Origin: Novosphingobium kunmingense
GTDB lineage: Bacteria > Pseudomonadota > Alphaproteobacteria > Sphingomonadales > Sphingomonadaceae
NCBI RefSeq assembly: GCF_002813245.1
Contig: NZ_PHUF01000004.1
Coordinates: 560,001-624,000 of the forward strand
DNA: 64,000 bases
Direction: 5' to 3'
Shown piece after piece: positions 27,665 through 64,000 of this stretch (position 1 is the stretch's first letter; each line of letters begins with the position of its first letter). A model generated the notes under the pieces. The model was not told the origin of the DNA and did not search any database. It saw only the letters and a list, made by a program, of their open reading frames with translations. Both the position numbers and the translations under genes were made by a program.

Positions 27665-28064
27665 CGCCGTGGCCCGTGCGCAGGCGCTGGCCAGCGAAAG
27701 CTTCATCGCCGCCTCGGGGCCCGGGGGGCAGAATGTCAACAAGGTGGCGACAGCGGTGCAACTGCGCGTAGATGTCTACGCGTTGCGCCTTCCGGTCGAG
27801 GTGTTCGCGCGGCTGAAGACGCTGGCCGGAAGCAAGATGACCGCGAAGGGCGAACTGCTGATCGGCGCACAGCGCTTTCGCACGCAGGAAGCCAACCGCG
27901 AGGATGCCCGCGGGCGTCTCGCCGCCCTGATCGAGGACGCGTTCCGCCTGCCCGAAAAGCGCGCCAAAAGCCGGCTCAACCGGATCAACAAGGGCGAGCG
28001 GCTGGAAGGCAAGAAGAAACGCGGCGCGGTGAAGGCCGGGCGCGGCAAGGTACGGCTGGACTGA
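27645..28064 (+). CDS. arfB: Alternative ribosome-rescue peptidyl-tRNA hydrolase ArfB
   Basis: A 139-residue class-I release-factor-like protein. The catalytic GGQ is at residues 27-29 in SGPGGQNVNK. The tail after about residue 100 is very rich in Lys/Arg (KRAKSRLNRINKGERLEGKK then KRGA), the part that threads into the empty mRNA channel in E. coli ArfB/YaeJ. It releases peptides from ribosomes stalled without a stop codon. It starts inside the pseudouridine synthase gene (20-base overlap). Its TGA abuts the TGA of the convergent hydratase gene in TGATCA. Confidence 0.92.
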   Translation: MSTPAHDAVARAQALASESFIAASGPGGQNVNKVATAVQLRVDVYALRLPVEVFARLKTLAGSKMTAKGELLIGAQRFRTQEANREDARGRLAALIEDAFRLPEKRAKSRLNRINKGERLEGKKKRGAVKAGRGKVRLD

Positions 28065-28916
28065 TCAGGTCGTCGCGCTGGCGCTCATCACCTGCCGGCC
28101 GTCCGCGGCAAAGGCGCCAAGCTCGAATGCTGCATCTTTGCTGCGCAGCGCAAGGTGCAGCAATTCTCCCGCGATTGCCGGCGACACGCCCCGAAAAGCG
28201 AAGCTCTTGAGAGCATTGTCGCCCAATTCGCGCCGCGCGAGGTCGAGCAGCAGCGTTGCCGTCAGCGGGCCATGGACGACGAGCCCACGATAGTTTTCGA
28301 TGCTCGTCGCGTAAGGCAGATCGTAATGAATCCGGTGGCTGTTGAAGGTCAGCGCCGAGAAACGGAACAGCAGCGTCTCATGAGGAGTGATGGCACGGTG
28401 TGCGTCCCATCCGGTCACGTCGAACGCGCCATCCCCAAGCGGAGGCGGCGCCGGGGGCGTACCATCCGCGGCGGCATCGCGATAGACGATGGTCTGGACT
28501 TCGCGCACGGCCAGCCCGGCCTCGCCGCTCGTCTCGTGGGCAACGTCGACGAAGGCCAGCGTACCGCTCGATCCGGTCTTTTCCGTTAAAGCGGCGATGC
28601 GCGACAGGCGCGTCACCGCCTCACCAACACGCAACGGCGCGACGAACTCGACCTTGCTCGACGCCCACATCCGGCGCGGAAGCGGGATCGGCGGAATGAA
28701 GCCAGCCGTCCCGTCGTCACGCCTCGGGTGACCATCGGGACCGAGCCGCGCGGTTGCCGCATCGGGCAGGCCCAGACACCAGTGAAAGCCCTGCGGCACG
28801 TTGCCATCGGCTGGGGCTTCGCGGTCGAGCGTGGCGCACCAGCGGTCGAAATGGCCGGGGTCGATCCGGTCGGCGCGAACTTCCTCGCGCCCTTTCCAGT
28901 CCTGCCAGTCGGTCAT
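28065..28916 (-). CDS. HTD2/Meh-like acyl-CoA hydratase (FAS1-like dehydratase domain)
   Basis: A 283-residue double-hotdog hydratase/dehydratase. The second hotdog has the active-site block FSALTFNSHRIHYDLPYA, the variant of the MaoC hydratase-2 motif found in mitochondrial HTD2 and in mesaconyl-C4-CoA hydratase (Meh) of the 3-hydroxypropionate bi-cycle. The first half includes PLPRRMWASSKVEF, also typical of this group. Expected reaction: reversible hydration of a 2,3-enoyl-CoA to the 3R-hydroxy form, or of a mesaconyl-type CoA ester. The ATG (28914-28916) overlaps the preceding TGA by one base (TGATG). It is the last gene of the six-gene CoA operon. Confidence 0.85.
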   Translation of the reverse strand: MTDWQDWKGREEVRADRIDPGHFDRWCATLDREAPADGNVPQGFHWCLGLPDAATARLGPDGHPRRDDGTAGFIPPIPLPRRMWASSKVEFVAPLRVGEAVTRLSRIAALTEKTGSSGTLAFVDVAHETSGEAGLAVREVQTIVYRDAAADGTPPAPPPLGDGAFDVTGWDAHRAITPHETLLFRFSALTFNSHRIHYDLPYATSIENYRGLVVHGPLTATLLLDLARRELGDNALKSFAFRGVSPAIAGELLHLALRSKDAAFELGAFAADGRQVMSASATT

Positions 28917-30490
28917 CAGTTGCGTCCTTCCAGCAGCCCGCGGGCGATGACCTGGGCTTGGATTTCGGCAGCACCTTCGAAGATGTTGAGGATGCGCGCG
29001 TCGCACAGCACGCGGCTGATCTCGAATTCCAGCGCGTAGCCGTTGCCGCCGTGGATCTGCAGGCTGGCGTCGGCGTTCGACCAGGCGGTGCGTGCGGCGA
29101 GCAGCTTGGCCATCCCCGCTTCGATATCGCAACGCTTGCCCGAATCCTTTGCTCTTGCGGCGGCATAGGTCAGCTCGCGCGACAGGACCAGATCGACCAG
29201 GCTCATCGCCAGCTTGTCGGAGACGCGCGGGAAATGGACCAGCGCCTTGCCGAATTGCTTGCGCTGCAGCGCGTAATCGAGCCCCAGTTCCAGCGCGCGT
29301 CGCGCCACGCCCACCGCGCGCGCGGCGGTCTGGATTCGCGCGCCCTCGAAGGTGCGCATCAACTGTTTGAAGCCCTGGCCTTCCTCGCCGCCGAGCAGCG
29401 CATCGGCAGGCGCGATCATGCCGTCGAACGACAGCGCGTATTCGCGCATCCCGCGATAGCCCAGCACCTCGATTTCGCTGCCGGCCATGCCGTCTGCCGG
29501 AAACGGATCGGCCTCGGTCCCGCGCGGTTTCGGGACCAGCAGCATCGACAGCCCGGCATAGCCCCTGGCATCGGGCAGGGTGCGGGCGAGCAGGGTCATC
29601 AGGTCCGACCGCGCGGCATGGGTGATCCAGGTCTTGGCCCCGTCGATCCGCCATTGGCCCTGTTCGCGCCGCGCGCGGGTCTGCAGACTGCCGAGGTCGG
29701 ACCCGGTGTCGGGCTCGGTGAATACGGCGGTGGGCAGAACCGCGCCGCTGGCAATAAGCGGCAGCCAGTGCGCTTTCTGCGCTGCCGTGCCCGATCCGGC
29801 GATCAGTTCGCCCGCGATCTCGCTGCGCGTGCCGAGCGACCCCGCGCCGATCCAGCCGCGCGACAACTCCTCGGTGACGAGGCACATGACCAGCTTCGAC
29901 AGACCCAGCCCGCCGTACTCCTCGGGAATGCAAACCCCGAACGTGCCGAGGTCGGCCATCGCCGCGACAGTCGCATCGGGGATGAGCGCATTGGCGAGGT
30001 GCCAGCCGTGGGCGTGGGGCAGAATCTCGGCTTCGGTAAAGCGGCGGAACTGGTCACGGATCGCGTTTAGTTCGGAATCGTGGAGCGATTCGCTGGGCCA
30101 TTGCCCTTCAGCAAGACCAGTCGCCAGCGCCGCGCGCGTAGCGGCATGATCGGTTTCGAGCAGATCAGCGCAGTCCTTGGCCAAAGTCGCCGCTGCCTCG
30201 GTCAGTCCAAGGTCGGCGGGGCGCAGCAGTTCGTTCTGCCCCATGGGCAGGCCGCCGATCAGCTGAGCGATCGTCTCCGCGAAGGCGAGGCGCGCGACGC
30301 GGTCATCCTGCGGGTTTGCACCCCGGCCCGATGCGACCCAGGCTGCGACAGCTTCGAGCGCGGCAACGCTCGTCGCGATCCAGGCAAAGCCGTGATGCGC
30401 GCGCTGGTTCGCGGTGTCTATCCCCGCGGCCGCCGCGCGCGCGGCGTCGCGGTAGGTCCGGGCAGCGTCTAGGGTGGCAGCGTGGTTCAC
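28916..30490 (-). CDS. Acyl-CoA dehydrogenase with N-terminal extension
   Basis: A 524-residue FAD acyl-CoA dehydrogenase, about 140 residues longer at the N-terminus than the standard 380-residue form. The extension is helical and Ala-rich and resembles an extra ACAD-type helical segment. The core has [59 protein letters not shown] and [20 protein letters not shown]. It oxidises an acyl-CoA to the enoyl-CoA and passes electrons to ETF. The start GTG (30488-30490) overlaps the thiolase stop as GTGA. The substrate is unknown; the second ACAD in the same operon suggests two separate oxidation steps. Confidence 0.87.
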
Positions 30491-31701
30491 GCCTTTTCGA
30501 ACACCGCCGCGATCCCCTGCCCGCCGCCGATGCACATGGTTTCAAGGCCGTAGCGCACATCGCGGCGCTGCATTTCGCGGGTCAGATTGGCAAGGATCCG
30601 CCCGCCCGTCGCCCCGATCGGGTGCCCTAGCGAAATGCCCGATCCGTTGACGTTGAGCATGTCGTGGCGGCTGTCATCATCGGCCCAGCCCAAGCCCTTG
30701 AGGCAGGCCAAGACCTGCGGGGCAAACGCCTCGTTCAGTTCGATCAGGCCGATGTCGTTCCACGACAGGCCGTTGCGGGCGAACAATCGCTCGGTGGCCG
30801 GGACGGGGCCGTAGCCCATGCGGCTGGGATCGCAGCCCGCCGCGGCCCAGCTATGGAACCACGCGATGGGTTCAAGTCCCAGTTCTTCGAGCTTGTCTTC
30901 CGCCACGACCAGACAGGCCGCCGCGGCGTCGTTCTGCTGGCTGGCGTTGCCGGCGGTCACCACACCGCCTTCCAGCGCGCGCAGCTTGCCTAGCGTCTCC
31001 ATCGAAGCATCGGCGCGATAGCCCTCGTCGTGATCGAAGCGCAGGGGATCGCCCTTCTTCTGCGGCACATCGACCGGCACCAGTTCGTCGGCGAACTTGC
31101 CGTCAACCCAGGCCTTGGCGGCGCGCTGGTGGCTGCGCACGGCATAGGCGTCGCAGGCCTCGCGGCTGATGTTCCAATCCTTGGCGAGGTTTTCGGCGGT
31201 TTCGATCATGCCGCTGATCACGCCGTAACGTTCGATCGGCTGGCTCATCACCCGGCCGCGGGTGAGGCGGTCGTGCAGGGTCAGGTTACCGGCCCGAACG
31301 CCCTTGCGGATGTCGGTGCTGTAATGTTCGACGTTCGACATGCTCTCGCAACCGCCGGCGACGACCACGTCGCTCATCCCGGTCTGCACCATCATCGCCG
31401 CGTTGACGATCGCCTGGAGGCCCGAGCCGCAGCGTCGATCAAGCTGGTATCCGGGCACCTGTTCCGGCAGGCCGGCCAGCAGCCATGACCAGTGTCCGAT
31501 GCAGGGAGCCTCGCCATTGCCGTAACCCTGGCTGAAGACGACGTCGTCGACACGGTTCGGGTCGATGGCGGTGCGTTCGACCAGCGCCTTGAGGATCGCT
31601 GCGCCAAGCTGCCCAGCGGTCAGAGAGGACAAGGCCCCGCCGAACTTGCCTACCGGCGTGCGGATCGGAGCGACGATGGCGGCGCGACGTAGCTGGGTCA
31701 T
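30487..31701 (-). CDS. Thiolase (acetyl-CoA C-acyltransferase)
   Basis: A 404-residue thiolase. The nucleophilic Cys is in [15 protein letters not shown]; the His is in [19 protein letters not shown] and the second Cys in [11 protein letters not shown] thiolase in an operon with dehydrogenases and a hydratase usually performs the degradative cleavage of a 3-ketoacyl-CoA. [20 protein letters not shown] is a longer loop than in biosynthetic PhaA-type thiolases and differs from the thiolase at the end of the window. ATG 31699-31701 overlaps the upstream TGA (ATGA). Confidence 0.93.
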
Positions 31702-32906
31702 AGATCAGTTCCTGCAATTCCCTGGTCGATCAGTTTGCCGATCTCGCCCGAGGACAAGCCCATGACGTCGGCAAGAATGGCTTCGCTGTGCTGTCCGTTG
31801 CGCGGGGCCGGTGCGGGCACCATGCGCTCGAGGCCGGGTAGCGTGGCAAAGGCGCCGGCGGCCGGATAGGCAAAGCCGCTCGGGTTGTCGGCGGTGATCG
31901 CGAACACCGGATTTTCGGTGACGAGGCGCGGATCCTCCACCGCTTCCATCATCGTCCGATAGGGTCCATGGACCACGCCGTTGACGTCGAACAGTGTTGC
32001 AAGGTCCGCGTGATCGTACTGCGCCACTTCATGCTCGATCGCGGCGAAGATCGCATCGCGGTGGGCAAAGCGCGCGCCGTCGTCATCGGCGAAGGTGACC
32101 CCGCGCTCGATCTCGATCGCGGCGATGGCATCGGCGATCCCCAGCGCCTTGACCAGCCCCTGCCACTGGCGTTCGTTGATCGCGACCAGCATGAATCGGA
32201 CTCCATCGCGGGTGACGAAGTCGCGGCCGATCGTGCCGAACACCGCATTGCCCAGTCGCTCGCGGTCGCGCCCGGTGTAGAGCACTTCGGCGACGCGGCC
32301 CAGGTTCGCGGCCGAACCGATCGCGATATCGGTCAGGGGCAGGCGCACTTCACCCCCTTCTCCGGTCAGCTCGCGCCGGCGCACGGCCGCCAGCATCGCG
32401 AAGGCGGCATAGGCGCCGGTCAACAGGTCCCAGGCGGGCAGCACGTGGTTGACCGGGCGCGGATCCTCGACCGGGCCGGTCAGCGCGGTGTAACCGACGG
32501 CGGCATTGGCGGTGTAGTCGAGCGCGACCGAGCCGTCGGGCCAGCCCATGATCCGCACCGTGACCAGGTCCGGCCTTCCTTCGGCAAGGCGGTCGTGGGC
32601 GAGAAATCCCTTTGCCGGCAGGTTGGTGACGAGGTTGCCGACCTTGCGCGTCAGTTCGACCAGCAGGTCGCGCCCCTCGGGCCGGGTCAGGTCGAGCGCC
32701 AGGCTGCGTTTGGCCCGGTTGAGGTTTTCCCAGCTGAGCGAATCGTTCTGGCGCGTTACCGGCCAGCGGTGGAAGTCCTGACCACCGCCGATCTGGTCGA
32801 CCCGGATCACGTCGGCCCCGAACTGCGCCATGTAGAGCCCCGCGGTGGGCGAGGCGACGAAGGACGAAACCTCGACGAGCGAGAGACCGGTGAGGATGTC
32901 GTACAT
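31698..32906 (-). CDS. CaiB/BaiF family III CoA-transferase, mesaconyl-CoA C1-C4 CoA transferase (Mct)-like
   Basis: A 402-residue class III CoA-transferase. The N-terminal region (SFVASPTAGLYMAQFGADVI then RVDQIGGGQDFHRWPVT) and PVNHVLPAWDLLTGAYAAFA, with the candidate catalytic D160, resemble the Mct (2-methylfumaryl-CoA isomerase) branch more than formyl-CoA or carnitine transferases. Mct moves CoA within mesaconyl-CoA from C1 to C4. An Mct-like and a Meh-like protein in one operon recall the glyoxylate-assimilation arm of the 3-hydroxypropionate bi-cycle, but the other operon members fit beta-oxidation instead. It abuts the upstream ACAD stop with no gap. Confidence 0.83.
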   Translation of the reverse strand: MYDILTGLSLVEVSSFVASPTAGLYMAQFGADVIRVDQIGGGQDFHRWPVTRQNDSLSWENLNRAKRSLALDLTRPEGRDLLVELTRKVGNLVTNLPAKGFLAHDRLAEGRPDLVTVRIMGWPDGSVALDYTANAAVGYTALTGPVEDPRPVNHVLPAWDLLTGAYAAFAMLAAVRRRELTGEGGEVRLPLTDIAIGSAANLGRVAEVLYTGRDRERLGNAVFGTIGRDFVTRDGVRFMLVAINERQWQGLVKALGIADAIAAIEIERGVTFADDDGARFAHRDAIFAAIEHEVAQYDHADLATLFDVNGVVHGPYRTMMEAVEDPRLVTENPVFAITADNPSGFAYPAAGAFATLPGLERMVPAPAPRNGQHSEAILADVMGLSSGEIGKLIDQGIAGTDL

Positions 32907-34073
32907 CTACTGCTGGGCCGCCCATTCGCGCAGCATGTGCTTGGCGATCTGCAGCTGCAGAATCTGCGTGGTGCCTTCGTAGATGCGGTAGATGCGCGCA
33001 TCGCGGAAGAAGCGTTCGGCATCGTATTCGGCCAGATAGCCGGCCCCGCCATAGATCTGCACCACGCGATCGACCACGCGGCCGCACATTTCCGTGGCGA
33101 AGACCTTGGCCGCAGCCGCCTGGCGCAGCACCTTCTCGCCCGCGTCGGCGCGGCGGCAGGCGTCGTCGAGCATGCATTCGGCGGCGTAGATCTCGATCTC
33201 GCTGTCGGCCAGCATCTGCTGGATCAGCTGGAAATTGGCGATCGGCTCGCCGAACGCCTTGCGTTCGTTGGCGTAGCGAAGCGCCGAATCGAGTGCGCGG
33301 CGGGCGTAGCCGGCCGCTGCCGATCCGACCGAAAGGCGCCCGTTGTCGAGGCTCTGCATCGCGGTGATGAAGCCCTTGCCTTCCTCGTCGCCGAGCAGCG
33401 CATCGGCGGGCAGGTGGACGTCCTCCATGATGATGTCGGCGATGTGGCTGCCGGCCTGGCCCATCTTCTTGTCGCTCTTGCCTACGGTGATGCCGGGCGT
33501 GTCCATCGGCACCAGAAAGGCCGAGACGTGGGCGTTCTTGGGCAGCGCTTCCTTGCTGGTGCGCGCCATGATCAGCGCGACATTGGCGAAGGGCGCGTTG
33601 GTGATGTAGCGCTTGGTGCCGTTGAGCACCCAGCCGTTCCCGCTGCGCACCGCCATGGTCTGCATGGCTGCGCTGTCCGATCCCGAACCCGGTTCGGTCA
33701 GGCCGAAGCTGGCGACCTCGCCTGCGGCCAGGCGCGGCAGCCATTCGGCCTTCTGCGCCTCGGTCCCGCCCTTCATGATTGCCGAGCAGACCATGCCGAT
33801 GTTGATCGAGGTGATCGAACGGTAGCACGGCATCGCATAGCTCAGTTCACGGATCGTGCGGGCGTACTGCGACACATTCATGCCAGCACCGCCATACTGC
33901 TCGGGCATGGTGATCCCGAACAGGCCCATATCGCGCATTTCGGCCATGATGTCGTCGGGGATGCGGTCGGTTTCGAGAACGTCCTTCTCCGCCGGGACCA
34001 GCCGTTCGCGCACGTAGCGGCGCAGTTGCTCGATGAACTGGTCGAAGACGTCGGGATCCATGCCGGTGTTCAT
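32907..34073 (-). CDS. Acyl-CoA dehydrogenase
   Basis: A 388-residue standard-length FAD acyl-CoA dehydrogenase with FGITMPEQYGGAGMNVSQYA, SFGLTEPGSGSDSAAMQTMA, VLNGTKRYITNAPFANVALI and a C-terminal IYGGAGYLAEYDAERFFRDA then RIYRIYEGTTQILQ, the helix that carries the general-base glutamate in most short/medium-chain members. Likely cytosolic and ETF-linked. It is the second gene of the operon, 12 bases after the SDR gene. EGTTQIL at the end is typical of ACADs acting on short or branched acyl groups, but the substrate is not determined. Confidence 0.93.
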   Translation of the reverse strand: MNTGMDPDVFDQFIEQLRRYVRERLVPAEKDVLETDRIPDDIMAEMRDMGLFGITMPEQYGGAGMNVSQYARTIRELSYAMPCYRSITSINIGMVCSAIMKGGTEAQKAEWLPRLAAGEVASFGLTEPGSGSDSAAMQTMAVRSGNGWVLNGTKRYITNAPFANVALIMARTSKEALPKNAHVSAFLVPMDTPGITVGKSDKKMGQAGSHIADIIMEDVHLPADALLGDEEGKGFITAMQSLDNGRLSVGSAAAGYARRALDSALRYANERKAFGEPIANFQLIQQMLADSEIEIYAAECMLDDACRRADAGEKVLRQAAAAKVFATEMCGRVVDRVVQIYGGAGYLAEYDAERFFRDARIYRIYEGTTQILQLQIAKHMLREWAAQQ

Positions 34074-34085
34074 GGGTGCGGGTCC

Positions 34086-35000
34086 TTAGATGGGATCGTA
34101 GGGGAAGACATGGGCCGAAACCTCGTCGCCGCGAGCAAAGCTGGGGCGGAAGGCGGGAATCAGCTCGTCGGCGATGCTTTCCGGCGTCCAGCCTTCGACC
34201 TTGGTCATCGAACGGATCGGGCGCGGCTTGTTGTAGAGGACGATCTCGTTCTTGCGGACCGAGAAGATCTGGTTGGTCACGTCCTTGCTGGCGTCGGAGG
34301 CGAGGTAGACCACCAGCGGCGCGATCTTGTCCGCGCTCATCGTCTTCAATCGTTCAACGCGCTGCTGCTGTTCGGGAGTTTCGGCGGGGATCGAGGCGGT
34401 CATCCGGCTCCATGCGAAGGGCGCGATGCAGTTGGAGCGCACGCCCGCGCGGGCCATGTCGAGCGCGATCGACTGCGACAGGCCGACGATGCCGAGCTTG
34501 GCCGCGCTGTAATTGGCCTGGCCGAGGTTGCCGATAAGGCCCGAGGTCGAAGTGAAGTGGATGAAACTGCCCGACTGCTGCTCGTGGAAATAGGGCGTGG
34601 CCGCCTTGCTGACGTTGAAGCTGCCATTGAGGTGCACGTCGATCACCGCGCGCCAGTCCTCGTGGCTCATCTTGTGCCAGATCGTATCGCGCAGAATTCC
34701 GGCGTTGTTAACGACCGCGTCGATCCTGCCGAACCGCTGCACCGCGTCCTCGACGATCGTGACAGCCCCCGCCGGATCGGCAACCGAGGCAAGGTTGGCA
34801 TGGGCCTTGCCGCCCGCCGCGACGATGTCGTCGACGGTTTCCTGCGCCGGGCCGGCATCGCCGCCATCGCCGCCGCCGCCCACGCCGGGGTCGTTGACTA
34901 CGACCGAAGCGCCATGCCTGGCGCAAAGCAGCGCGATCTCGCGGCCCACGCCGCGCCCCGCACCGGTCACCGCTACAACCTTGCCTTCCAGCATGCCCAT
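34086..35000 (-). CDS. Short-chain dehydrogenase, (3R)-hydroxyacyl-CoA dehydrogenase-like
   Basis: A 304-residue SDR resembling the dehydrogenase domain of the peroxisomal multifunctional enzyme type 2. TGAGRGVG (12-19) binds NAD(P); NNAG is at 98-101; the catalytic set is Ser in TSTSG (about 151-153), Y164 and K168 in YSAAK. The C-terminal 60 residues (after SDASKDVTNQIFSVRKNEI) extend beyond a minimal SDR, as in MFE-2. Expected role: oxidise the 3R-hydroxyacyl-CoA made by the Meh/HTD2-like hydratase. First gene of the six-gene operon; GAGGA lies 10 bases before ATG 34998-35000. A candidate operator lies at 35020-35041. Confidence 0.92.
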   Translation of the reverse strand: MGMLEGKVVAVTGAGRGVGREIALLCARHGASVVVNDPGVGGGGDGGDAGPAQETVDDIVAAGGKAHANLASVADPAGAVTIVEDAVQRFGRIDAVVNNAGILRDTIWHKMSHEDWRAVIDVHLNGSFNVSKAATPYFHEQQSGSFIHFTSTSGLIGNLGQANYSAAKLGIVGLSQSIALDMARAGVRSNCIAPFAWSRMTASIPAETPEQQQRVERLKTMSADKIAPLVVYLASDASKDVTNQIFSVRKNEIVLYNKPRPIRSMTKVEGWTPESIADELIPAFRPSFARGDEVSAHVFPYDPI

Positions 35001-62880: not shown

Positions 62881-64000
62881 TTAGAGGACCTCGAACAGGC
62901 CGGCAGCACCCTGTCCGCCGCCGATGCACATGGTGACCACCACATACTTCGCGCCGCGCCGCTTGCCTTCGATCAAAGCGTGGCCGGTGCAGCGCGCGCC
63001 GGTCATGCCGAAGGGATGGCCGATCGAGATCGAGCCGCCGTTGACGTTGAGCAGTTCGTCGGGAATGCCCAGCTTGTCGCGGCAATAGAGCACCTGGACG
63101 GCAAAGGCTTCGTTCAGTTCCCACAAGCCGATGTCATCCATCTTCAGGTTGAAGCGTTCGAGCAGCTTGGGAATGGCGAAGACCGGACCGATGCCCATTT
63201 CGTCGGGTTCGGTGCCGGCCACGGCCATGCCGACATAGCGGCCGAGCGGATCGAGGCCGCGCTTCTCGGCGACCTTTGCTTCCATCAGCACGCAAGCCGA
63301 CGACCCGTCGGACAGCTGGCTGGCGTTGCCCGCGGTGATCGTATGGCCCTCGCCCATCACCGGCTTCAAACTGGCCAGCCCTTCGAGCGTGGTATCGGGA
63401 CGGTTGCAGTCATCGCGGTCGGCGGTGACATCCTTGAACGAGACTTCCTTGGTTTCCTTGTCGACGATCGCCATCGTCGCCTGACAGGACACGATTTCGT
63501 CGTCGAACTTGCCGGCGGCCTGGGCGGCGGCGGTGCGCTGCTGCGACTGCAGCGAGTATTCGTCCTGATACTCGCGGCTGATGCTGTAGCGCTTGGCCAC
63601 CACTTCGGCGGTGCCGATCATCGGCATGTAGATGTGCGGGTGCATTTCCAGCAGCTGGCGATCGGGCTCGACGAACATCTTGCCGCTGCCGACGACCTTC
63701 GAAATGCTTTCCACGCCGCCGCCGACGCAGATGTCCATGTTGTCGACCAGGATCTGCTTGGCCGCTGTGGCGATGGTCATCAGGCCAGACGAGCACTGGC
63801 GATCGATGGTCATCGCCGGGACGGTGACCGGCAGGCCGGCGCGAAGCGCGGCAAGGCGCGCAACGTTGCCGCCGGTCGATCCCTGCTGGGCCGCCGTCCC
63901 CATGATGACGTCGTCGATTTCGCCGCCTTCCAGGCCAGCGCGCTCGACCGCCGCCTTGATCGAGTAGGCGCCGAGCGTGGCACCCGTGGTGTTGTTGAAT
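62881..64000 (-). CDS. Acetyl-CoA acetyltransferase (thiolase), 5' end outside the window
   Basis: At least 372 residues of a thiolase continue past the right edge: the frame is open from 64000 and includes [20 protein letters not shown] before a later ATG at 63901-63903, so that ATG is internal. Nucleophile Cys in [20 protein letters not shown], His in [20 protein letters not shown] and second Cys in [16 protein letters not shown]. Either fatty-acid breakdown or acetoacetyl-CoA formation is possible; phaZ nearby makes a link to PHB turnover attractive but unproven. It differs from the thiolase at 30487. Confidence 0.94.

Follow-up and report, generated by a model that had tools for sequence, protein, structure and literature searches.

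Six genes on the minus strand, at positions 28065-35000 of a 64,000-nucleotide stretch of the Novosphingobium kunmingense genome (contig NZ_PHUF01000004.1, positions 560,001 to 624,000; hereafter the window), form a compact operon encoding a short-chain dehydrogenase/reductase (SDR), an acyl-CoA dehydrogenase (ACAD1), a family III CoA-transferase, a thiolase, a second acyl-CoA dehydrogenase (ACAD) and a hydratase (Table 1). No gap between the six open reading frames (ORFs) exceeds 12 bases, and their coordinates confirm the tightly spaced six-gene operon that a preliminary description of this DNA had proposed. The SDR and ACAD1 genes are 12 bases apart, ACAD1 abuts the CoA-transferase gene with no gap, and the CoA-transferase and thiolase ORFs overlap by 4 bases; the second ACAD starts with a GTG whose GTGA is shared with the thiolase stop (again a 4-base overlap) and has a further in-frame GTG upstream, at 30535, while the hydratase ATG overlaps the preceding TGA by 1 base. 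We put a probability of roughly 0.67 on the reading, drawn from sequence comparisons, that the operon encodes a catabolic module of two joined halves, in which one turn of beta-oxidation would yield methylsuccinyl-C1-CoA, and enzymes of the methylsuccinyl-CoA dehydrogenase (Mcd), mesaconyl-CoA C1-C4 transferase (Mct) and Meh/itaconyl-CoA hydratase (Ich) types would carry this on to citramalyl-CoA.

Table 1. Genes of the operon, with predicted products and roles.
Feature	Coordinates	Strand	Description
SDR	34086-35000	-	304 aa; (3R)-hydroxyacyl-CoA dehydrogenase of MFE-2 type; putative role in 3-oxoacyl-CoA formation
ACAD1	32907-34073	-	388 aa; acyl-CoA dehydrogenase without the Mcd alpha-methyl pocket; predicted first oxidation of the beta-oxidation turn
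CoA-transferase, family III, Mct clade	31698-32906	-	402 aa; predicted mesaconyl-CoA C1-C4 CoA transfer
Thiolase	30487-31701	-	404 aa; predicted release of acetyl-CoA and methylsuccinyl-C1-CoA
Second ACAD, Mcd-type methylsuccinyl-CoA dehydrogenase	28916-30490	-	~524 aa including N-terminal extension
Hydratase, HTD2/Meh/Ich type	28065-28916	-	283 aa; putative mesaconyl-C4-CoA hydratase

The Two Acyl-CoA Dehydrogenases

Compared with all solved structures, the second ACAD finds its best match in 6es9 (580 bits, query residues 27-522 of 525 against chain residues 53-551), followed by 8ciw, a chain named (2S)-methylsuccinyl-CoA dehydrogenase (277 bits), and FadE3 (255 bits). The Mcd of Paracoccus (PdMCD) has an N-terminal extension of ~170 residues, and uses Arg252, Arg376 and Arg421 for the carboxyl group and a pocket of Ala285 and Phe287 for the C2 methyl, according to the published description (PMC5798300). 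The extent of the 6es9 match shows that the window protein has the N-terminal extension of Mcd. Nine active-site positions taken from the same source (S248, R252, A285, F287, R376, E380, T418, R421 and E535) were checked in an alignment of the window protein with 63 homologues encoded near transferase genes and with ACAD1 relatives, hits with internal stops having been dropped beforehand. All nine are unchanged in the window protein, including the three arginines, the methyl pocket Ala285/Phe287 and the catalytic Glu535, and they are identical in 52 of the 54 homologues with at least 55% identity (53 distinct sequences), the other two being fragments of 170 and 184 residues. Among the nine rows below 55% identity, five have the pattern of a different ACAD, two resemble 8ciw and two are fragments. 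By family and active-site identity, the second ACAD is assigned to the Mcd family. Five ACADs that are 32-34% identical to Mcd (in the transferase loci that we number L043, L044, L053, L112 and L122) were rejected as Mcd, their signature being different.

For ACAD1, short-chain acyl-CoA dehydrogenases (SCAD) are the closest chains among solved structures. It has Phe at the column of PdMCD Ala285 and none of the three arginines, as do all 77 relatives with at least 45% identity (74 distinct sequences), and because of these differences the two ACADs probably do different jobs. ACAD1 was rejected as a second methylsuccinyl-CoA dehydrogenase, with Phe standing in place of the methyl pocket. The preliminary description was right to count two acyl-CoA dehydrogenases; they are not alike, and it had missed that the second is of the Mcd type.

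The CoA-Transferase

The CoA-transferase matches the Mct structures 8apq and 7xkg, of Chloroflexus and Roseiflexus, with 339 and 334 bits, versus 90 bits for a formyl-CoA transferase. In a quick maximum-likelihood tree of 88 rows with SH-aLRT support (a careful search was unfinished, and the tree carries a long-branch warning), 74 rows that include the Mct of C. aurantiacus and R. castenholzii form one clade (support 100) whose stem measures 2.54 changes per site, and outside it fall the Frc and SUGCT chains and the eight (of twelve) own-genome paralogues that were included. The likeness to Mct that had been noted at the outset is thus supported by a clade with both solved enzymes. It had also been said that a tree placing transferase and hydratase with enzymes of a known pathway would count against the original scheme; half of that outcome was found, in that the transferase falls with Mct in a tree that covered the transferase only.

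In Mct, Asp165 is catalytic, Arg47 and Tyr136 hold the far carboxyl, and Arg47 occupies the space of an opening loop found in some transferases that act between molecules (PMC9813914). The window protein keeps these residues as R47, Y131 and D160, and in 121 homologues with at least 40% identity (116 distinct) the Arg and Asp are present in 121/121, with Tyr in 87 and Phe in 34. By family and active-site residues, the enzyme is a putative Mct that would catalyze intramolecular C1-C4 transfer. These residues also bear on one form of the scheme in the preliminary description, in which CoA transfer between molecules activates an acid, 3R-type beta-oxidation follows, and Mcd and hydratase are ordinary members of that turn. 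The enzymes of a beta-oxidation turn are indeed present, but the retained Arg47, the methylsuccinyl-type site in Mcd, and a second family III transferase beside the set in locus L037 all argue against it, and we regard it as very improbable. Placing transfer ahead of oxidation is probably the wrong order; the parts fit a beta-oxidation turn followed by Mcd, intramolecular transfer and hydration.

We note that in five Novosphingobium loci (L040, L041, L042, L045 and L100) the transferase gene seems to have been exchanged, the rest of the operon being inherited. There it is of the Erythrobacteraceae type, 54-57% identical to that of the window and nested in that clade, while the thiolase is 91-92% and the SDR, where present, 90-93% identical to those of the window.

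Hydratase, SDR and Thiolase

The hydratase is related to itaconyl-CoA hydratase 8khg (168 bits, residues 5-255), with an FN(S/G)HRIHYD block common to both; the FNSHRIHYD form noted in the preliminary description, and the Meh-like character read from it, both stand. Itaconyl-CoA hydratase also acts as a mesaconyl-C4-CoA hydratase, and an Ich homologue in C. necator seems to belong to a different pathway (PMC12290011). We take the window protein to be a relative of itaconyl-CoA hydratase that may hydrate mesaconyl-C4-CoA.

The best solved relative of the SDR is 2et6, a chain named (3R)-hydroxyacyl-CoA dehydrogenase (368 bits over two stretches), and 17-beta-HSD4 chains score 180 and 178 bits; this closeness to the (3R)-hydroxyacyl-CoA dehydrogenase of MFE-2 type agrees with the 3R-type beta-oxidation set first suggested for the operon. 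Loci L037, L047, L048 and L092 have a PaaH-type 3-hydroxyacyl-CoA dehydrogenase in the cluster in place of the SDR. The thiolase matches NCBIfam model PRK06205 with 678.5 bits (cut-off 551). Near the transferase gene of nine other loci (L088, L099, L110, L128, L252, L266, L269, L297 and L300) are genes for an HMGS-like protein and a PRK06157-type thiolase, on the opposite strand in L252 and L266, and no window-type thiolase was seen beside the transferase in those nine. That this pair acts as an aldolase cleaving citramalyl-CoA is possible, and we leave it as a weak candidate.

A Proposed Route through Methylsuccinyl-CoA and Mesaconyl-CoA

In the upper half of the proposed route, ACAD1, a hydratase, the 3R-type SDR and the thiolase would carry out one beta-oxidation turn on a methyl-branched dicarboxylyl-CoA, with acetyl-CoA and (2S)-methylsuccinyl-C1-CoA as products. 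Thiolysis would leave CoA on the carboxyl next to the methyl, which would make the product a substrate of a C1-type Mcd, and it is the Mcd identity of the second ACAD that joins the beta-oxidation half to the transferase and hydratase half. Mcd would oxidize methylsuccinyl-C1-CoA to mesaconyl-C1-CoA, the Mct-type transferase would move CoA within the molecule to give mesaconyl-C4-CoA, and the Meh/Ich-type hydratase would form (S)-citramalyl-CoA, which an unlinked citramalyl-CoA lyase would cleave to acetyl-CoA and pyruvate; direct hydration of mesaconyl-C1-CoA would require Mch. Candidate lyase genes in the N. kunmingense genome are at C3:446868-447722 and C3:647572-648393. On purely chemical grounds the best-fitting substrate would be 4-methyladipyl-CoA (3-methyladipate activated at its far end), 3-methyladipate being the expected remnant of a chain that carries a methyl on its third carbon and is degraded from the opposite end.

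Sequence comparison establishes Mcd and Mct family membership with active-site identity, conserved linkage, and lyase linkage in some relatives; the activities and the upstream substrate are inferred. The chemistry of the last steps is established in other organisms; their joining in this way is our proposal, and we know of no pathway in which these enzymes have been shown working together. These are known enzymes in a new combination that is chemically sensible and widely conserved. Searches of open-access full-text literature (subscription journals and preprints lying outside their scope) found no description of an Mcd-Mct-Meh route, and open-access literature listings gave no lead on bacterial breakdown of 3-methyladipate.

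The same chemistry might instead apply to a 2-substituted succinyl-CoA of greater size, derived from a terpenoid or steroid ring, with the lyase releasing a longer 2-oxoacid. Some relatives do sit within large clusters that encode additional ACADs, AMP ligases and thiolases, and the alternative thiolase (PRK06157, 690 bits, cut-off 403) matches a benzoylsuccinyl-CoA thiolase model weakly, at 149 bits (cut-off 750). However, the nine PdMCD positions are unchanged, including those of the methyl pocket, and the one module-adjoining lyase that was scanned against NCBIfam is closest to RipC/Ccl, so that we consider a larger substrate unlikely. Breakdown of steroid rings C and D is left as a weak candidate for the substrate source; the known route for these rings yields propionyl-CoA and succinyl-CoA. 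A methyl-ortho route through 4-methyl-3-oxoadipate is chemically possible and likewise left as a weak candidate; a literature search on it found nothing useful.

Another setting to be weighed is assimilation of acetate or CO2, as Mcd is known from the ethylmalonyl-CoA pathway, and Mct and Meh from the 3-hydroxypropionate bi-cycle. A sphingomonad meh gene and 2-methylfumaryl-CoA isomerase have been listed under carbon fixation (PMC9967899), and short MaoC matches to the Mch family (PF19315, cut-off 26.5) pass the Pfam cut-off in all 27 genomes searched. The match in the N. kunmingense genome, at 50 bits, covers only positions 21-168 of 353 (148 positions) within a 163-residue frame, Mch being the one bi-cycle enzyme covered by this search; and crotonyl-CoA carboxylase/reductase (Ccr) is over its cut-off in 0/27 genomes, the best own-genome score being 63 bits versus 378.55. 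With no Ccr over the cut-off we rejected the ethylmalonyl-CoA pathway, and with no full-length Mch match (short MaoC matches do pass) the bi-cycle was rejected as the likely setting; the two findings together make both pathways unlikely, and assimilation by either seems scarcely credible here. The absence of Mch and of a lyase from the operon, pointed out in the preliminary description, holds.

Distribution and Gene Order

The transferase was found at E 1e-60 in 22 of 61 genomes, comprising 21 of the 37 in the genus Novosphingobium (the window's own included) and one other, and at E 1e-75 in 44 of 337 genomes from the class and 28 of 398 from the phylum, with the N. kunmingense genome in both sets. 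From a survey of named genomes the 80 best of 577 confirmed stretches were retained; they come from Novosphingobium, Sphingomonas, Sphingopyxis, Sphingorhabdus, Sphingobium, Erythrobacter, Qipengyuania and other genera, and 61 of them have enough flank for reading gene order. Linkage was scored within 7 kb at identity cut-offs of 70% for SDR, 60% for ACAD1, 70% for thiolase, 55% for Mcd and 48% for hydratase. At least one of the other five genes stands beside the transferase on the same strand and in the window's order at 58 of the 61 well-flanked loci; this gene order is not chance. All six genes in the window's order are present at nine loci, ACAD1-transferase-thiolase-hydratase at 18, all but the SDR at six, and the transferase alone at three; by gene, linkage to the transferase is 49 for thiolase, 47 for ACAD1, 40 for hydratase, 28 for Mcd and 18 for SDR. 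Among further relatives, seven of the 17 loci with enough flank hold the full set of six genes, and other gene orders occur in L037, L060 and L075. The operon is thus found again in many members of the Sphingomonadales, and other Proteobacteria have recombined forms of it.

The 18 loci with ACAD1, transferase, thiolase and hydratase and no Mcd raise the possibility that CoA transfer precedes dehydrogenation, methylsuccinyl-C1-CoA being converted to the C4 ester and then oxidized by another ACAD to mesaconyl-C4-CoA; loci that lack Mcd may use this route. A (RS)-methylsuccinyl-C4-CoA dehydrogenase has been described (PMC12290011). Moreover, in loci L029-L129 Phe replaces the substrate-binding Tyr in 30 of the 49 transferases without Mcd in the locus versus 4 of 52 with Mcd, or, counted by residue, 30 of 34 Phe-type and 19 of 67 Tyr-type transferases are without Mcd. 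A Phe-type enzyme would suit CoA transfer on a saturated ester, but the association is confounded by ancestry: the Tyr/Phe split lies mostly in one clade and may reflect ancestry alone. In addition, the available sequence stops within 4.5 kb downstream at nine of these 49 Mcd-less loci, and five pairs of transferases have the same sequence, some of them coming from one genome represented twice. As the window has an Mcd with the C1 signature together with a Tyr-type transferase, we find transfer before dehydrogenation improbable for this operon.

Recombined Relatives and a Candidate Citramalyl-CoA Lyase

Several relatives place a lyase gene with the lower half of the proposed route. In Sphingobium estronivorans (L092) the order is transferase-thiolase-Mcd-hydratase-lyase, followed by a 3-hydroxyacyl-CoA dehydrogenase and two enoyl-CoA hydratases, and the best NCBIfam model for its lyase is RipC_Ccl (284 bits, cut-off 375). 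Plasmid pSHV1 of S. herbicidovorans carries transferase-Mcd-hydratase-lyase, with a lyase 61% identical to that of L092, and a stretch of Sinorhizobium mexicanum without annotation has Mcd-transferase-hydratase-lyase with a thiolase upstream, the lyase being 35% identical to that of L092. An HTD2 homologue directly precedes the lyase gene in L092, L293, L295 and L298. In Pseudorhizobium flavum the HTD2-type hydratase, lyase and ETF genes lie ~5 kb downstream of the transferase, and Mcd adjoins an annotated MmgE/PrpD gene further off. Pyruvate carboxylase is annotated ~5 kb from the lyase gene on two plasmids, a placement that would suit pyruvate and acetyl-CoA as end products, although two instances are no more than suggestive.

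Other relatives are informative about the upper half. S. paeninsulae has SDR-MaoC (an MFE-2-like hydratase)-HMGS-thiolase-ACAD1-transferase-Mcd-hydratase in a row, so that each hydration step could have its own enzyme, and two separate hydratases are also present in the fuller operons of L039 (same genome as L077), L071, L076 and L079. L037 has an ACAD, a 3-hydroxyacyl-CoA dehydrogenase, Mcd, an enoyl-CoA hydratase, a thiolase, the Mct-type transferase and the second transferase in a row, without the HTD2-type hydratase, and in Variovorax SRS16 the transferase is accompanied by the HMGS-like/thiolase pair, two enoyl-CoA hydratases, a 3-hydroxyacyl-CoA dehydrogenase and an Mcd with the 8ciw pattern. 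In Novosphingobium aromaticivorans a two-gene locus, SARO_RS19850-19855, encodes Mcd and hydratase with no transferase beside them. We did not count a set of genes for a lyase, a transferase and a ThDP-type enzyme that lies upstream of the operon in one genome (G024); from our reading it looks like a separate 2-hydroxy-acid operon.

We also note lyase genes in other settings. In the N. kunmingense genome (C3:647572-648393), and in genomes G008 and G034, a CitE-like lyase gene directly follows a gene that is malic-enzyme-like from a reading of its start. Locus L268, from the same phylum and outside the class, has genes for a hydratase, an Mct-type transferase and two CitE-like lyases in succession, next to a family I CoA-transferase-like gene, and looks like a bi-cycle-like set in another family.

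Evidence Against the Proposed Route

A number of observations weigh against the proposed route, or against one function for all relatives of the operon. At the level of individual enzymes, the transferase scores 349 bits versus the TIGR04253 equivalog cut-off of 725, so that we place it in the Mct clade and do not call it a proven Mct, and the hydratase has no NCBIfam match. In the fuller operons the SDR is accompanied by a MaoC hydratase, which finds no match in the N. kunmingense genome (G021, the control and the source of the query, did match), and this leaves the upper half without an assigned hydratase here. Half-length MaoC matches that pass the Mch Pfam cut-off leave some room for an Mch-like activity. 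The operon holds no lyase gene, the two own-genome lyase candidates reach 163 and 155 bits versus the RipC_Ccl cut-off of 375, and among named loci L050-L129 only L092 has a lyase-like match; relatives of RipC/Ccl number at least one in each of the 27 genomes searched, with 0/27 over the cut-off.

The distribution of Mcd is a second difficulty. Its gene is linked to the transferase in only 28 of the 61 well-flanked named loci, 11 of 25 genomes searched have no Mcd match at E 1e-70 anywhere, most Erythrobacteraceae operons seen are without Mcd and SDR, and unlinked Mcd stands apart from the six-gene partners in the five neighborhoods read (L144, L146, L148, L149 and L151). With Mcd so often absent, the Mcd-less form needs another dehydrogenase or another substrate. 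Finally, in several of 20 outside neighborhoods read, the transferase is without any of these partners, and in L254 and a Marinobacter plasmid it lies beside a longer MaoC protein resembling Mch, which suggests that the Mct clade also serves other routes.

Comparison with Known Systems

Beta-oxidation of benzylsuccinate (Bbs) uses an ACAD, a hydratase, an SDR and a thiolase on a succinate derivative, as in the window operon, and the window SDR has a remote match to a chain named BbsD. The operon differs from Bbs in having no activating heteromeric transferase and in having an Mct-type transferase and Mcd instead. With the ethylmalonyl-CoA pathway it shares a (2S)-methylsuccinyl-CoA dehydrogenase with an N-terminal extension and identical active-site positions; unlike that pathway, it has no Ccr over the cut-off in its genome, and mesaconyl-C1-CoA would go to Mct and not to Mch and on to glyoxylate and propionyl-CoA. 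The second half of the 3-hydroxypropionate bi-cycle (Mch-Mct-Meh-lyase) likewise has a member of the Mct clade and a Meh/Ich-type hydratase leading toward citramalyl-CoA, but here mesaconyl-C1-CoA would come from oxidation of methylsuccinyl-CoA and not from glyoxylate and propionyl-CoA, with no full-length Mch match.

The pseudomonad cluster for itaconate and methylsuccinate (Ict, Ich, Ccl, a C4-type Mcd and Msi) takes methylsuccinyl-CoA through mesaconyl-C4-CoA and citramalyl-CoA to acetyl-CoA and pyruvate, as proposed here; its dehydrogenase uses the C4 ester, whereas the window has a C1-type Mcd and relocation of CoA would fall to an Mct-type enzyme (PMC12290011). The window operon, with six genes only, is without MmgE/PrpD and lyase genes, and has a built-in beta-oxidation turn. 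The closest logic is that of the thn genes of anaerobic naphthalene degradation (ThnP, ThnO/ThnT), where thiolysis puts CoA on the wrong carboxyl and an intramolecular CoA-transferase corrects its position before an ACAD acts; ThnP, however, is a family I (Cat1) enzyme acting on a cyclohexane diacid in an anaerobe, while the window transferase is of family III (PMC11659651).

Implications

The proposed reading predicts a complete route for methylsuccinyl-C1-CoA, an intermediate otherwise known from acetate assimilation. The chances seem to us evenly balanced that it represents a widespread, undescribed aerobic route, in which methylsuccinyl-C1-CoA from beta-oxidation at methyl branches is finished by Mcd, an Mct-type CoA flip and cleavage of citramalyl-CoA, with no use of B12, carboxylation or glyoxylate. 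An intramolecular CoA-transferase would then serve ordinary catabolism, allowing oxidation past a methyl branch without ATP for re-activating the acid. If this is true, mct and meh of Proteobacteria would often have their natural place in heterotrophic breakdown, and could not safely be used as markers of CO2 fixation. The relatives of these genes that we found lie in degradation-type operons of heterotrophic bacteria. Several papers naming 2-methylfumaryl-CoA isomerase are, judging by title, about carbon fixation, and meh and such an isomerase of a sphingomonad were listed under that heading (PMC9967899).

Genomic Setting and Other Observations

Downstream, the operon is bordered by a plus-strand gene ending at 28064, and upstream by two small minus-strand ORFs and then plus-strand genes from 35689. 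Near the end of the window and outside the operon, at 62881-63903, is another ORF that from our reading is thiolase-like. The N. kunmingense genome (3.5 Mb in 10 contigs) has thirteen family III CoA-transferase hits, among which the copy in the operon ranks eleventh by score; at C3:9100-11226, two family III CoA-transferase domains occupy a single open frame of 760 residues.

An unlinked cluster of the same genome (C5 86000-98000, L190), its genes named mostly by reading the sequences, encodes a ring-cleavage-like alpha/beta hydrolase, a hydratase, an HpaI-type aldolase, a CoA-transferase, an MFS transporter and an IclR regulator. In Novosphingobium marinum, Sphingobium chungbukense and Novosphingobium sp. 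PC22D (L071, L076 and L077) most of these genes immediately adjoin the six-gene operon, and this adjacency is a possible clue to the substrate.

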